A model generated the notes under the pieces. It had not been told where the DNA came from. It was given only the letters and a program-made list of their open reading frames with translations, and searched no databases. This document shows, piece after piece, positions 28,124 to 32,038 of a stretch of 64,000 bases of DNA. The stretch spans positions 1 through 64,000 of the forward strand of contig NZ_VAUW01000010.1 in NCBI RefSeq assembly GCF_005771495.1, read 5' to 3'. How positions within the stretch are numbered: the first letter of the stretch is position 1; each line of letters starts with the position of its first letter. Position numbers and translations under genes: made by a program. The stretch comes from Maribacter sp. ACAM166 (GTDB lineage: Bacteria > Bacteroidota > Bacteroidia > Flavobacteriales > Flavobacteriaceae).

Positions 28124-28741
28124 ATGTCAGTACTCAAAACGCTTATTTTAGTATTTGTAGGCTCCAAAAAGGAATCGTACCTCACCTTGGCAAAAAAGAT
28201 GAGCGATGGGGAGCTGGTCGATAAAATAAATGCCTCAAAAGACAGTCAACTTTTTGGTATTCTTTATGACCGTTATGGTAACAAGGTCTATAACAAGTGC
28301 TTTAGTTTTGCTAAAAATGATAGTGATGCAAAAGATCTCACACAAGAAATTTTCCTAAAAGTCTTTTTAAAATTACAACTTTTCAATAGTGATAAGGCAT
28401 CTTTCTCCACATGGTTGTACGTCATGGTCTATAACTTTTGCATTAATTACGTGAACAGGGACAAAAAGAAAGAAAACAGGTCGGAACCTCTGGATGCCCA
28501 TGAGTATCATTTAAGTGAGGAAAACGTTGAAATCGATGAGATAAACACCTTAAATGCCGAAAAACTTACCAAGGCTCTTGAATTATTAGCCCCTGAAGAA
28601 AAATCACTTTTACTATTAAAATATCAAGATGATGTTTCTATCAAAGAATTACAAGCTTCCTTTGACGTTGGTGAAAGTGCCATAAAAATGAGATTGAACA
28701 GAGCCAAGGCAAAAGTTGTAAAAATTTATGATACACTTTAA
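28124..28741 (+). CDS. ECF RNA polymerase sigma-70 factor, probable envelope-stress type
   Basis: 205 residues; a start at Met26 (MSDGELVDKI) is also possible and would give a more usual length. Region 2 has FGILYDRYGNKVYNKCF, DAKDLTQEIFLKVFLKL and FSTWLYVMVYNFCINYVNRD. Region 4 has LEKLAPEE-like LELLAPEEKSLLLLKYQDDV and the recognition helix VGESAIKMRLNRAKAKV. No FecR or membrane anti-sigma gene adjoins; instead a 59-residue protein starts 2 bp after the stop. It may direct the TGTGAC-N16-GTA promoters found downstream. Confidence 0.9.
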   Translation: MSVLKTLILVFVGSKKESYLTLAKKMSDGELVDKINASKDSQLFGILYDRYGNKVYNKCFSFAKNDSDAKDLTQEIFLKVFLKLQLFNSDKASFSTWLYVMVYNFCINYVNRDKKKENRSEPLDAHEYHLSEENVEIDEINTLNAEKLTKALELLAPEEKSLLLLKYQDDVSIKELQASFDVGESAIKMRLNRAKAKVVKIYDTL

Positions 28742-28743
28742 AT

Positions 28744-28923
28744 ATGAAAGAGAATATTTTCAAACAAATAGAAACAGATAAGAAACTTCCAGAAGAAGCA
28801 AAAGAGGAATTGGTATCAAATATCGAGACGGCTAAATTATTCCAAAGCTTTACCGAACTTTTTGGTACTGAATATTTATCCGTTTTAAAAGACTTCTTCA
28901 AAAATGATAAAAAGGAAGAATGA
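28744..28923 (+). CDS. Small helical protein coupled to the ECF sigma gene
   Basis: 59 residues, ATG 28744 to TGA 28921-28923, beginning 2 bp after the sigma stop. Charged and helical throughout (KKLPEEAKEELVSNIETAKL), with no membrane segment. Its core EELVSNIETAKLFQSFTELF aligns with DLRNTVLSDIEDAKLLMHLT of the 63-residue protein encoded at 29043, so the two are paralogs. Tight coupling to a sigma factor that lacks an anti-sigma neighbour makes a regulatory role (soluble anti-sigma or sigma partner) plausible but unproven. Confidence 0.75.
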   Translation: MKENIFKQIETDKKLPEEAKEELVSNIETAKLFQSFTELFGTEYLSVLKDFFKNDKKEE

Positions 28924-28967: not shown

Positions 28968-28992
28968 TGTGACCTTTTCATTTATCTGGGTA
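28968..28992 (+). promoter_or_regulatory. Candidate ECF promoter, site 1 (TGTGAC-N16-GTA)
   Basis: TGTGAC at 28968-28973, 16 bp, then GTA at 28990-28992, ending 50 bp before the start of the small protein/MscS unit. The same elements with the same spacing recur at 30108 and 31089. This is read as the -35 and -10 of an ECF-type promoter. Confidence 0.6.
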
Positions 28993-29042
28993 ATAAGCTA
29001 TAAGAAGGCTGCAATCGTTTAATTCCCCAAAAGTGTGAACGT

Positions 29043-29234
29043 ATGGGTAAAGAAGTTATTTTTAAAAGAATGGGGCTTCCTTTAAAAGAAGTTCCTTCAG
29101 ATTTAAGAAACACGGTTTTATCTGACATTGAAGATGCCAAACTTCTCATGCACCTTACAAGGTTTTTCTCTTCAGCGTTTACATTGACGGCAAAACAGAT
29201 TTATAAAAACCTAAAGCAACATAAAAAACCATAA
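29043..29234 (+). CDS. Small helical protein upstream of MscS, paralog of the sigma-coupled protein
   Basis: 63 residues. Contains SDLRNTVLSDIEDAKLLMHL, matching the core of the 59-residue product at 28744, then a basic tail ending KNLKQHKKP. No membrane segment or known domain. It starts 50 bp after candidate promoter site 1 and ends 11 bp before the MscS gene, so both are probably on one transcript. It may act with the sigma factor or the channel; this is inference. Confidence 0.7.
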   Translation: MGKEVIFKRMGLPLKEVPSDLRNTVLSDIEDAKLLMHLTRFFSSAFTLTAKQIYKNLKQHKKP

Positions 29235-29245
29235 ACCACAATAAA

Positions 29246-30082
29246 ATGGAAACAATTACTACTTGGAAAGAGTTGACTGCAAACACTATTAATGAGATGG
29301 GAAGAACCATCATGGAAGCCGTTCCGAACATCTTTGGTGCGGTATTGATCCTATTGATCGGATGGCTGATAACCAAAATCATTATTTTGGTGCTAAAAAG
29401 GGTTTTAAAATTCGTTAAGGCCGATAAATGGACAAATGCCCTGAATGAAAAAGTATTGTCCGGAAAAACCTCCTTAAAATTCGATATTTCAAAGGTGATA
29501 CTGATTTTTGTTAAATGGATATTATTCCTAGTGTTCCTCATCGCAGCCGCCGATATAATGAAATGGGAAATTGTCTCACAAGAAGTTGGTAATCTAATGC
29601 ACTACCTTCCAAAATTATTTAGCGCCATAGCAGTGTTCATGGTCGGCCTGTATATAGCGAATTTTGTAAAGAAAGCCATCAAAGGGGTATTCGACTCCTT
29701 TGATCTTAGAGGTGCCAAACTCGTAAGCACCTTGGTATTCTATATCATTGCCTTCATCATTACGGTTACCGCCTTAAACCAAGCAGGCATCGAAACCGTC
29801 ATTATTAGAAACAATACCACTTTGATTCTTGGAGGCTTTGTAGCGGCCGTGGCCATCTCATTTGGTCTTGGCTCAAAAGATATTGTCAAAGATATTATTA
29901 GAACATCCTACGCACGTAAAAAATTTAAGATCGGGCAAAAAGTTACCTACAAGAATGTATCTGGTACTATTGAAGCATTAGAATCTCTTACCATGGACAT
30001 ACGAACCGAACAGGGGCTACTAGTTGTACCGATACATAAAATCATGGAAGAGGAAATACTGGTTACGGAAGATTCCAAGTAA
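29246..30082 (+). CDS. MscS-family mechanosensitive ion channel protein
   Basis: 278 residues. Five hydrophobic segments are seen: about 28-50, 87-107, 120-140, 163-182 and 193-215. The last is Gly/Ala-rich (GGFVAAVAISFGLGSKDIVK), as in the pore-lining TM3 of MscS. A short cytoplasmic beta domain (KFKIGQKVTYKNVSGTIEAL, then IRTEQGLLVVPIHKIMEE) follows and ends early, so this is a compact form without the full C-terminal barrel. Role: inner-membrane release of solutes on osmotic downshift. It shares a transcript with the preceding small protein, behind candidate ECF promoter site 1. Confidence 0.88.
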   Translation: METITTWKELTANTINEMGRTIMEAVPNIFGAVLILLIGWLITKIIILVLKRVLKFVKADKWTNALNEKVLSGKTSLKFDISKVILIFVKWILFLVFLIAAADIMKWEIVSQEVGNLMHYLPKLFSAIAVFMVGLYIANFVKKAIKGVFDSFDLRGAKLVSTLVFYIIAFIITVTALNQAGIETVIIRNNTTLILGGFVAAVAISFGLGSKDIVKDIIRTSYARKKFKIGQKVTYKNVSGTIEALESLTMDIRTEQGLLVVPIHKIMEEEILVTEDSK

Positions 30083-30107
30083 TTTGAAAATTATTTTTTG
30101 TTTAAAA

Positions 30108-30132
30108 TGTGACCTTTTGAAAAATTGGTGTA
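30108..30132 (+). promoter_or_regulatory. Candidate ECF promoter, site 2 (TGTGAC-N16-GTA)
   Basis: TGTGAC at 30108-30113, 16 bp, then GTA at 30130-30132, ending 41 bp before the GIN-domain gene. It shares the longer TGTGACCTTTT with site 1. Confidence 0.6.
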
Positions 30133-30172
30133 AAAAGAATAGACAAGTAATAATCTTTTAAATATTTAAATA

Positions 30173-31003
30173 ATGAAAAAACACGTACTCTTCTTTGCAA
30201 TAGCTTTAATAAGTGTGTCATTGGCGGCACAAAAGAAACCGAAAATTAAAGGAAATAAGGAAGTAACCCAGGTTATTAAGGAAATTCAAGGTGAATTCAA
30301 TGCATTAGAAATAGACGATGCATTGGAAGTCACCATAACCCAAGGCAACAATAATGCCTATGCCTTGAACATAGACAGTAACCTTGTTGACATTCTTCAG
30401 TTTTCCGTTACCGATAGCATATTGAAAATATATACTTCAAATAACATCACAAGCAGTAAAAAGTTGAAGATCAACTTAACTGTTGTTGAAATTGAACATT
30501 TAATTTTGAAGAACGATGCTAAAGTAAATGGAGAAGGCAGGTTCACAGCTAAAAAATTCTATCTTAATGCGTACAATTCTAGTCGGATAAAAAATTTGGA
30601 TGTTAGAGCTGATGATGTGACCATTACATTGCACAGGGATGCCGGAGGCGACATAAAAGTGAAGTCGGAAAATACGACCATAGTGATGAATGATAGAACG
30701 GATTTAAAGGCTGATGTCATTGCCGACAAGGTAAGAGTTACGTTGAACAACTCAGCTGACTTAGACCTTAATGGTGATGCGGACTATGCAAGCTTCAATT
30801 TGAAGAAATCCGGGAATTTAAATGCTAGAAAAATGAAGATCAGTTCTGCCGACCTTTACACTTCAAACAACTCTGATGTATATATTAATGCGTCTAGAAA
30901 CTTAGAAGTTTATGCTCAAGGTAAGAGCAATGTATATGTTTACGGAAATCCCGAAGTACAGATTAAAGGGTTGACAGATAAATCTAAGATTATAAAAAGG
31001 TAA
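30173..31003 (+). CDS. GIN-domain (DUF2807) secreted protein
   Basis: 276 residues with a signal peptide (1-19, ISVSLAAQ). The rest is the right-handed beta-helix-like DUF2807 'head GIN' domain, with short repeating strands such as LILKNDAKVNGEGRF, NLDVRADDVTITLHRD and KSGNLNARKMKISSADLY. The domain is found in many Bacteroidota envelope proteins, sometimes described as putative autotransporter adhesin; its activity is not established. It has its own candidate ECF promoter (site 2) and is followed by a strong terminator, so it is monocistronic. Confidence 0.85.
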   Translation: MKKHVLFFAIALISVSLAAQKKPKIKGNKEVTQVIKEIQGEFNALEIDDALEVTITQGNNNAYALNIDSNLVDILQFSVTDSILKIYTSNNITSSKKLKINLTVVEIEHLILKNDAKVNGEGRFTAKKFYLNAYNSSRIKNLDVRADDVTITLHRDAGGDIKVKSENTTIVMNDRTDLKADVIADKVRVTLNNSADLDLNGDADYASFNLKKSGNLNARKMKISSADLYTSNNSDVYINASRNLEVYAQGKSNVYVYGNPEVQIKGLTDKSKIIKR

Positions 31004-31044
31004 GCACATACTGCATATTTTTAACTCCCTACAACTAAGGTTCG

Positions 31045-31074
31045 AATGCCTCTCTTATGGGAGGCATTTTTTTT
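31045..31074 (+). terminator. Rho-independent terminator after the GIN-domain gene
   Basis: AATGCCTC (31045-31052) and GAGGCATT (31061-31068) form a perfect 8-bp stem with an 8-nt loop, running into eight T residues (31067-31074). Confidence 0.9.
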
Positions 31075-31088
31075 AATCTAACGTTTTT

Positions 31089-31113
31089 TGTGACTTTTTT
31101 AAAAGTCTGTGTA
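31089..31113 (+). promoter_or_regulatory. Candidate ECF promoter, site 3 (TGTGAC-N16-GTA)
   Basis: TGTGAC at 31089-31094, 16 bp, then GTA at 31111-31113, immediately after the terminator of the GIN gene. It should drive the LapA gene 270 bp downstream; the space between holds a coding relic. Confidence 0.55.
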
Positions 31114-31129
31114 TACATAGTATAACCAT

Positions 31130-31382
31130 AAAACATACACGATTGAAAAATAGAAAATATCAAAAATAGCTGCAAAAGTTTGGTCGAAAAAGTAGGTCAC
31201 CTAGAAGATGCTCTATTTAATCATACCGATAAGAATTTGGAAAAAGCATTGAACAAACTGAACAACGACTTTTCAACGACCATATCTTTATTTCCAAACT
31301 TGAGGTCTCGTATGAGATACAGGTTTCACATGTAAGAAAGCAGCATAATCACGCTACTTTGGTTGTCAAAAAAAATTATAAA
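31130..31382 (+). pseudogene. Unidentified coding relic between ECF promoter site 3 and lapA
   Basis: Frame 1 reads CKSLVEKVGHLEDALFNHTD and LEKALNKLNND without a start codon. Near 31282 the coding appearance moves to another frame, HIFISKLEVSYEIQVSHVRK, which stays open into the LapA gene. A single frameshifted ancestral gene would explain this. I do not recognise the family, and the call rests only on codon-like composition and continuity. Confidence 0.3.
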
Positions 31383-31589
31383 ATGAAATTCAAAACTATT
31401 CTAGCCCTATTATTTGCAGTTATAATCGTGATTTTTTCGTTACAAAACGCAGAGGTTACCGATGTTAAATTTTTACTTTGGAAATTATCAATGTCCCGGG
31501 TTCTTATCATCTTAGGTAGTTTCGGGGTCGGTGTTCTTGTTGGTATCCTTGCCTCTATGAAACGTCAATTAATCAACACTAAAAAATAA
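31383..31589 (+). CDS. LapA-domain (DUF1049) small inner-membrane protein
   Basis: 68 residues from ATG 31383; an upstream TTG at 31359 is possible but adds only a basic stretch. It has two membrane helices (MKFKTILALLFAVIIVIFSL and VLIILGSFGVGVLVGILASM) separated by QNAEVTDVKFLLWKL, the LapA/DUF1049 pattern (lipopolysaccharide assembly protein A domain). In Proteobacteria LapA works with LapB at the inner membrane in LPS control; no LapB is seen here. It ends 5 bp before an unknown gene, forming a two-gene unit behind candidate ECF promoter site 3. Confidence 0.85.
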   Translation: MKFKTILALLFAVIIVIFSLQNAEVTDVKFLLWKLSMSRVLIILGSFGVGVLVGILASMKRQLINTKK

Positions 31590-31594
31590 TAATC

Positions 31595-32038
31595 ATGGCC
31601 AAGATACTTTCCGTAGAACTGCAAAAAATACCTAAATATATTAACGTAGGAGATGACATCAACGATTTAACCGTACTAACAACAATACAGTTCCATGAAC
31701 TGGATCTAAAGCTAGAAATGCCTTATTGCTTACATGTTTTCGTTTATGATATTCATGGAGCTTTAGATGCCCCCCTTGTTATACCTAATTGGGACGAAAG
31801 CGTCGTTGTTTCGATCGCTTTAGGTAGAAAAGATGATCTTCTAGGTCAAGAAGCGACCATGATAAAAGCAACTGAGGCGAAAATGACGATAGAGACTCCT
31901 ATGGCGCTTACTTTAGGTAGATTTAATAAGGAGATGTCACCAATTAGCAGAAAATTAGAAGTATTTGCTACTATGGCTCCAATCGTTGGAAGGGCTTCCA
32001 AATATTCTGAGCCGTTTACCTCACAGATTACCTATTAA
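31595..32038 (+). CDS. Hypothetical protein following lapA
   Basis: 147 residues with no signal peptide and no membrane helix. The sequence alternates strand-like stretches (TVLTTIQFHELDLKLEMPYC, VVVSIALGRKD, KMTIETPMALTLGRF), suggesting an all-beta cytoplasmic protein. I do not recognise a family. It begins 5 bp after lapA and is probably co-transcribed with it, so it may share the envelope-stress context. Confidence 0.7.
   Translation: MAKILSVELQKIPKYINVGDDINDLTVLTTIQFHELDLKLEMPYCLHVFVYDIHGALDAPLVIPNWDESVVVSIALGRKDDLLGQEATMIKATEAKMTIETPMALTLGRFNKEMSPISRKLEVFATMAPIVGRASKYSEPFTSQITY

Follow-up and report, generated by a model that had tools for sequence, protein, structure and literature searches.

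The sigma factor locus of Maribacter sp. ACAM166

A stretch of 64,000 nucleotides from Maribacter sp. ACAM166 (contig NZ_VAUW01000010.1, positions 1 to 64,000; the window) was analysed around three copies of the element TGTGAC-N16-GTA that lie beside a gene for an extracytoplasmic function (ECF) sigma factor. A reading made from the letters alone (the sequence-only reading) had placed these copies in intergenic regions, on the strand of the following gene, and ahead of a small protein/MscS unit, a GIN-domain gene and a LapA unit; coordinates, gene calls and family scans agreed on each point (Table 1). Site 1 lies between the small-protein genes sm1 and sm2, site 2 between mscS and the GIN gene, and site 3 between the GIN gene and the ATG of lapA. 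The longer sequence claimed for two of the copies is TGTGACCTTTT, common to sites 1 and 2, while site 3 has TGTGACTTTTT. The -10 boxes of sites 1, 2 and 3 read GGGTA, GTGTA and GTGTA.

Table 1. Positions of the candidate promoter sites, genes and hairpin of the locus
Feature	Position	Strand	Description	Basis
Candidate promoter site 1	28968..28992	+	TGTGACCTTTT-N11-GTA, 5' of sm2-mscS	Sequence, genome motif scan, matrix
Candidate promoter site 2	30108..30132	+	TGTGACCTTTT-N11-GTA, 5' of GIN gene	Sequence, genome motif scan, matrix
Candidate promoter site 3	31089..31113	+	TGTGACTTTTT-N11-GTA, 5' of lapA-dcp	Sequence, genome motif scan, matrix
ECF sigma factor gene	28124..28741	+	205 aa; L3 loop at about residues 87-96 with one extra residue	
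sm1	28744..28923	+	59-aa helical protein, candidate anti-sigma factor	Open reading frame, family scans, predicted structure
sm2	29043..29234	+	63-aa paralogue of sm1	Sequence comparison
mscS	29246..30082	+	MscS-type mechanosensitive channel	Family match
GIN gene	30173..31003	+	DUF2807 / head-GIN domain protein	Family match
Terminator-like hairpin	31044..31069	+	3' of GIN gene	Similar hairpin readable in G411 locus L089
lapA	31383..31589	+	LapA-domain protein	Family match
dcp (our own label)	31595..32038	+	147-aa protein, no family match	Adjoins lapA also in G411 and Flaviramulus

The sigma gene reported at 28124 was matched by Sigma70_r2 (E 2e-15) and Sigma70_r4_2 (E 1.7e-8). Its product has sigma regions 2 and 4 and no region 3, as in ECF (group IV) factors, and the target promoters have the conserved -35 and GT-containing -10 of this class, as judged from their sequence only. 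sm1 and sm2 are 32% identical, sm1 gave no convincing match in Pfam or NCBIfam, and the predicted structure of the small protein is one long helix (predicted template modelling score 0.39). An open reading frame of 40-95 aa starts at the sigma stop codon (-20 to +70) in 130 of 138 loci, a count made without a similarity filter and including a few unrelated frames. The hairpin that precedes site 3 is consistent with a lapA unit of its own. Site 3 and lapA are 269 bases apart (31114-31382), compared with 103 in the related genome G411, and this stretch holds a 51-aa open reading frame without assigned family.

Rarity of the sites in the window and its genome

TGTGAC-N16-GTA was counted in the window and in 100 shuffles of it, which gave a mean of 0.34 matches and in no case reached the three observed. 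Genome-wide, this short form is not rare (16 matches, against 17 for a reversed-pattern control). Of the longer form TGTGACNTTTTN11GTA the 4.92 Mb genome has exactly three copies, all within the same 2.1 kb of the window, and of its reversed control none. With up to one mismatch it gave 17 matches against 13 for the control, so that near-copies elsewhere in the genome are at chance level. The window was also scored with a matrix from 56 sigma-promoter sites of other genera, in which the position that reads C or A was omitted and spacings of 16-18 were allowed, the window sites being already known. The three sites took ranks 1-3 (26.2, 23.7 and 21.7); an alternative spacing of site 3 scored 10.6, the next distinct place 9.8, and the best scores of ten shuffled windows ran from 10.9 to 21.2. 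No comparable site was found by the matrix scan 5' of the sigma gene, in keeping with the earlier remark that this gene lacks an exact copy.

Conservation in Maribacter and Croceitalea

Compared genomes and fetched loci are given G and L numbers, respectively, G000 being the window's genome and L089 the G411 sigma locus. A sigma match of E 1e-20 or better was obtained in 32 of 36 members of the genus, the window's genome included; matches in G402 and G428 were weak or broken, and the relative in G402 (L121) has internal stops and is apparently a pseudogene. An MscS relative stands beside sigma in 32 of the 33 fetched genus loci, among which the full order sigma-sm1-sm2-mscS-GIN-lapA-dcp was found only in G411 (contig C23), with a sigma 75% identical to that of the window. 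G411 has GTGACCTTTTN11GTA in the same three intergenic gaps and no exact copy elsewhere in its 4.7 Mb; a fourth site, with one mismatch, lies 3' of dcp. One of the G411 sites reads CGTGTA at -10. At up to one mismatch the pattern gave 12 matches in G000 (reversed control, 18) and 9 in G411 (control, 9). G411 also encodes a second sigma, 48% identical, which is of the common Maribacter type.

The fourth G411 site (L089:5365-8546) stands ahead of a weakly AAA-like protein (below the Pfam cut-off) and then of a 238-aa protein that looks membrane-anchored; neither gene lies directly behind dcp in the window.

In Croceitalea dokdonensis, an exact GTA-type site lies between a sigma-sm pair and a GIN gene and is the sole exact copy in that genome. 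A copy counted as GTA-type if it had this spacing and at most one mismatch, confined to the T run or the sixth base. When the 33 genus loci with the window and a further 49 loci were scanned with GTGACCTTTTN11GTA, such copies were found ahead of module genes in the window, G411 and C. dokdonensis loci only.

A sister promoter across the Flavobacteriaceae

The sigma-small protein-MscS module recurs across the Flavobacteriaceae and some Weeksellaceae. From at least 80 loci, 49 (L143-L191) were analysed and 31 more distant ones (L192-L222), mostly from other phyla, were left out; an MscS relative stands beside sigma in 41 of the 49 named loci. The window form differs from the family norm, in which the -10 is GTC at N17. 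GTGAC-N16..18-GTC was found 5' of sigma in 27 of 34 loci outside a grouping of Maribacter, Flagellimonas and Muriicola, with N17 in 24, and when all 5-mer/3-mer dyads at spacings of 13-19 were counted in sigma upstream regions, GTGAC-N17-GTC ranked first. Among 138 unique sigma genes, the N17 form lies ahead of 69 and the N16-18 form ahead of 74, whereas in 50 rounds of shuffled upstream regions the mean was 0.22 and the highest count 1. The consensus of the 69 sites is GTGAC(C/T)TTTT-N10-GTGTC(T/A)(T/A)A. A site of this kind, which would allow autoregulation, stands ahead of these 69 of the 138 unique sigma genes and not ahead of that of the window.

The pattern GTGACY-N14-GTGTCWWA was searched in 397 family genomes and gave 541 matches in 134 of them (up to 15 per genome; about 23 for the reversed control). 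The sigma (model A2, E 1e-45, with up to 7 candidates scored per genome) was found in 128 genomes. The GTC motif was present in 117 of these 128 and in 17 of the 269 without the sigma (odds ratio 158; Fisher p 1e-67, a value that is too small because the genomes are related).

In Flaviramulus (L186), sigma, sm, mscS, GIN, lapA and dcp stand in a single row with a GTGAC-N17-GTC site 5' of sigma that has a weaker -10 (GCAGTC); no GTGAC was seen in the intergenic stretches of this locus that were examined. In L241 and L266 (G179 and G353), the sigma gene is followed by a series of GTGAC-N17-GTC sites, near which lie short stretches resembling the small proteins.

Genes behind GTC-type promoters

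Targets were read in 30 loci and in 60 stretches from 10 genomes chosen for many sites, with sites at the sigma gene skipped in the 60; because of that choice, the target classes are not a random sample. Of 85 different sites, 82 had an open reading frame behind them (67 within 150 bases), and 7 sites lay inside long open reading frames. One representative per class, sigma excepted, was scanned with Pfam (the BON match was below its cut-off), and 45 targets fell into the classes so set, with 37 outside them: DUF2853 (9), LysM and LysM/BON (7), sigma (5), M48 peptidase (5), aquaporin (4), OmpA (4), GIN (3), and MscS, dodecin, DUF937 and DUF3078 (2 each). Maribacter GTC-type sites were also found ahead of another kind of MscS and of OmpA genes. 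An osmotic or envelope role of the regulon is likely because MscS, aquaporin, LysM, OmpA and GIN proteins stand behind the promoters elsewhere.

In L367 (G260), the gene 109 bases behind a GTC-type site looks, when read by eye, like that of the primary sigma factor RpoD; if it is, the circuit would be tied to housekeeping transcription.

The L3 loop and the -10 base

The -10 reads GTA at N16 in all eight sites of the window type (three in the window, four in G411:C23 and one in the second C. dokdonensis locus). The three corresponding sigmas have one extra residue before the FSTW motif (FNSDKASFSTW, YNAVKASFSTW and YNPDKAAFSTW, against, for example, FKGKSKFSTW). This residue was absent from every other readable loop among the 138 sigmas (L121 is broken and has no loop), and from SigW and sigma-E in the three PDB alignments inspected. 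In the predicted sigma model the insertion falls in the loop between helices 66-86 and 94-118. The three sigmas form one clade (support 100/98 in a tree of 137 rows; the bootstrap was still unsettled, and Croceitalea sits on a long branch). The nearest sister sigmas, in G138, G135, G256, G179 and G353, have GTC-type sites nearby, between sm1 and sm2 in G138 and G135 and before GIN in G138.

Lin et al. (PMC6372665) report that the choice of the flipped master base in the -10 lies with the L3 loop of ECF sigma region 2 (residues 63-72 of E. coli sigma-E), that loop swaps exchange specificity, and that readers of C, T, A and G at this base are known. Those swaps resemble the present case in the loop and base concerned; here there is a natural insertion in one clade, accompanied by C-to-A and a spacing one base shorter, as seen by comparison only. 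The promoter letter appears to have changed together with the sigma. A link between the L3 loop and the -10 base is suggestive and not proven, because three sigmas in one clade amount to a single evolutionary event.

The common circuit in the window's lineage

GTC-type sites numbered 1-4 in each of 26 other Maribacter genomes tested and likewise in Croceitalea, and none was found in the window's genome. In G401 and G424 the single GTC-type site is the one at the sigma gene start. This count omits nine of the 35 other genus members: G402, with its broken sigma; G408, a 97% complete Maribacter with no sigma match; and G404, G405, G406, G415, G419, G425 and G428, which are below 93% complete. No sigma of the common type was found in the window's genome (99.96% complete, 4.58% contamination), where the sole match at 1e-20 is the window's own sigma. 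The OmpA protein and the MscS behind Maribacter GTC-type sites are present in G411 at 94% and 92% identity; the window's genome gave no match to the OmpA protein at E 1e-40 and, for the MscS, only a 46% relative, of a kind that G411 also has, at 48%. The common sigma and these two targets were likely lost in the window's lineage.

In the Maribacter loci among the 69 with an N17 site, the site overlaps the first codons of the sigma open frame. L090-L119 have a sigma 5' end with a GTG start (VTFLKKLCLII), and GTGAC lies at -294 from the tryptophan codon of FSTW, where other genera span -273 to -316. That GTGAC is plain coding sequence here was considered and dropped, given this position and the GTGAC-N17-GTC form, which suggest an ancestral promoter. 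pN/pS was determined for 42 loci chosen for an open frame beginning GTGAC, some rows being near-copies; the fixed GTG start is a product of that selection. Codons 2-16 had a pN/pS of 0.067 in the 20 loci whose -10 reads GTT, and 0.32 in the GTC group, a value inflated by the outgroup row L185. Given this apparent purifying selection, the ancestral GTGAC-N17-GTC promoter appears to have become the first codons of the Maribacter sigma gene. The window and G411:C23 sigmas start with ATG, and GTGAC is absent there.

Assignment of the sites and alternative explanations

The three elements are most probably (roughly 85%) -35/-10 promoters of the ECF sigma encoded at 28124, in a circuit derived from the family's sigma/small protein/MscS module. 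The sequence-only reading had made the same assignment, which is now backed by four lines of comparison: synteny with sites in G411, the sister promoter, its co-occurrence with the sigma, and the joint change of L3 loop and -10. Its proposal of a compact envelope or osmotic stress regulon fits the genes behind the sister promoters, with confinement to the locus seen in the window's lineage only. In the search for the motif in relatives that it had proposed, G411 keeps the sites and the window form is not family-wide.

Several results weigh against the assignment. The window pattern was rejected as a family-wide motif: exact TGTGACNTTTTN11GTA occurs in 39 of 397 genomes, and none of 29 such places fetched from other genomes (L030-L058) has a module protein within 1.5 kb. 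Exact GTGACCTTTTN11GTA gave 3 matches in 27 further genomes, against 12 for its reversed control, and only the Croceitalea match sits at a sigma locus of the window kind. Eleven of the 128 sigma-bearing genomes lack the GTC pattern, and the 17 genomes noted above have it without a sigma match. The window's sigma gene has no promoter of this kind ahead, the distance from site 3 to lapA is long, and site 3 by itself is only just beyond chance, since shuffled windows come within 0.5 of its score. The single evolutionary event behind the loop and base change counts here as well.

Free sigma with RNA polymerase would transcribe sm2-mscS, the GIN gene and lapA-dcp. Otherwise the sigma would be kept inactive, perhaps through the small protein whose gene follows directly, and from the gene content we infer that envelope or osmotic stress frees it, that more sm2 gives negative feedback, that MscS releases pressure and that GIN and LapA act at the envelope. 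Across the family, the common promoter GTGAC-N17-GTC stands ahead of sigma, where it would serve autoregulation, and ahead of genes for osmotic and envelope functions. In the window's lineage, the loop residue would have been gained, the targets would have come to read GTA at N16, the promoter ahead of sigma would have gone and the regulon would have become confined to the locus.

Among the alternatives, the one that survives best accepts the sites as promoters of this sigma and takes the signal to be a general envelope, stationary-phase or cold response rather than an osmotic one. It is a serious possibility, somewhat short of an even chance: none of GIN/DUF2807, LapA, OmpA, M48 and dodecin points to osmotic stress in particular, but the promoters are repeatedly followed by MscS channels of two kinds, aquaporin and LysM proteins. 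That the sites serve a different ECF sigma of this genome, or several such sigmas at once, is unlikely. The sigma search in G000 gave 27 first-look candidates, one of which passed E 1e-20, so that many other sigma-like genes exist, and overlapping ECF regulons are discussed in PMC9723704. Nevertheless, in both G000 and G411 exact sites lie only beside the window-type sigma, the difference in their -10 base goes with that in the L3 loop of the same sigma, and the sister promoter tracks the presence of this sigma family.

TGTGA is the half-site of CRP, and the elements might accordingly be operators of a CRP/FNR-like or other transcription factor instead of promoters. This is very improbable. 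The CRP palindrome is TGTGA-N6-TCACA, and no TCACA arm was found at 6 bases in any of the three sites; moreover, the second box, GTA or GTC, is conserved at a fixed distance as in ECF promoters, and the motif co-occurs with a sigma. Chance repetition of AT-rich sequence, for which only the abundance of the short form speaks, is already contradicted by the confinement of all three genomic copies of the longer form to this locus, by their retention in G411 and by the matrix ranks.

Relation to known systems

The closest PDB relatives of the window's sigma are SigW and sigma-E. SigW reads a CGTA -10. The B. subtilis SigW and E. coli sigma-E systems share with the present one a two-domain ECF sigma, a two-box promoter with GTC or GTA at -10, and stress targets; they differ in that the neighbour here is a helical protein of about 60 aa and not a recognisable membrane anti-sigma, in the MscS gene in the operon, and in the extra L3 residue. 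The window's sigma scored below the curated cut-offs of the NCBIfam SigW, SigX and sigma C models, and among the 25 of 92 NCBIfam matches listed only the general superfamily TIGR02937 reaches its cut-off; the best row has 83.8 bits against 198.

Motif SM6, from the start-site map of Flavobacterium psychrophilum (PMC9723704), is likewise an ECF-type promoter class of flavobacteria, and its -10 region contains a CGT box. As described in the main text of that paper, its target genes, for type IX secretion and Band-7 proteins, lie next to a sigma/anti-sigma pair, and neither "mechanosensitive" nor "GTGAC" occurs there. None of the genes that follow the three sites matched a type IX secretion component (sm2 and dcp matched no family at all), and SM6, to judge by that text, is a different regulon. 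Neighbourhoods of Toastrack domains (DUF2807/DUF4097/DUF2154; PMC11237479) also contain a DUF2807 protein that adjoins a sigma factor, for which signalling from membrane to transcription was proposed; the accessible part of that paper names no promoter motif, MscS or small protein. Its mention of an operonically linked sigma factor means that the DUF2807-sigma pairing as such is not new. In the open-access literature, with subscription papers and supplements outside the search, no paper was found on the motif or on a sigma-small protein-MscS operon.

Significance

What is new beyond the sequence-only reading is the family-wide regulon, the C-to-A change, and the absence, probably by loss, of the common sigma and two targets here. 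At its fullest, the case would be a natural switch of promoter alphabet, in which one residue was added to the -10 loop of a paralogue of the family-wide stress sigma, the promoters of that paralogue went from GTGAC-N17-GTC to GTGAC-N16-GTA, and this Maribacter kept the resulting insulated circuit after losing the common sigma together with parts of the common regulon, with the uncharacterised 60-aa proteins as a new class of soluble anti-sigma factor; all of these holding jointly is an even bet. This seems to be a natural case of joint change in sigma loop and promoter base, and the promoter code, the sigma, a candidate regulator and a list of targets together are directly testable in many genera of the Flavobacteriaceae.

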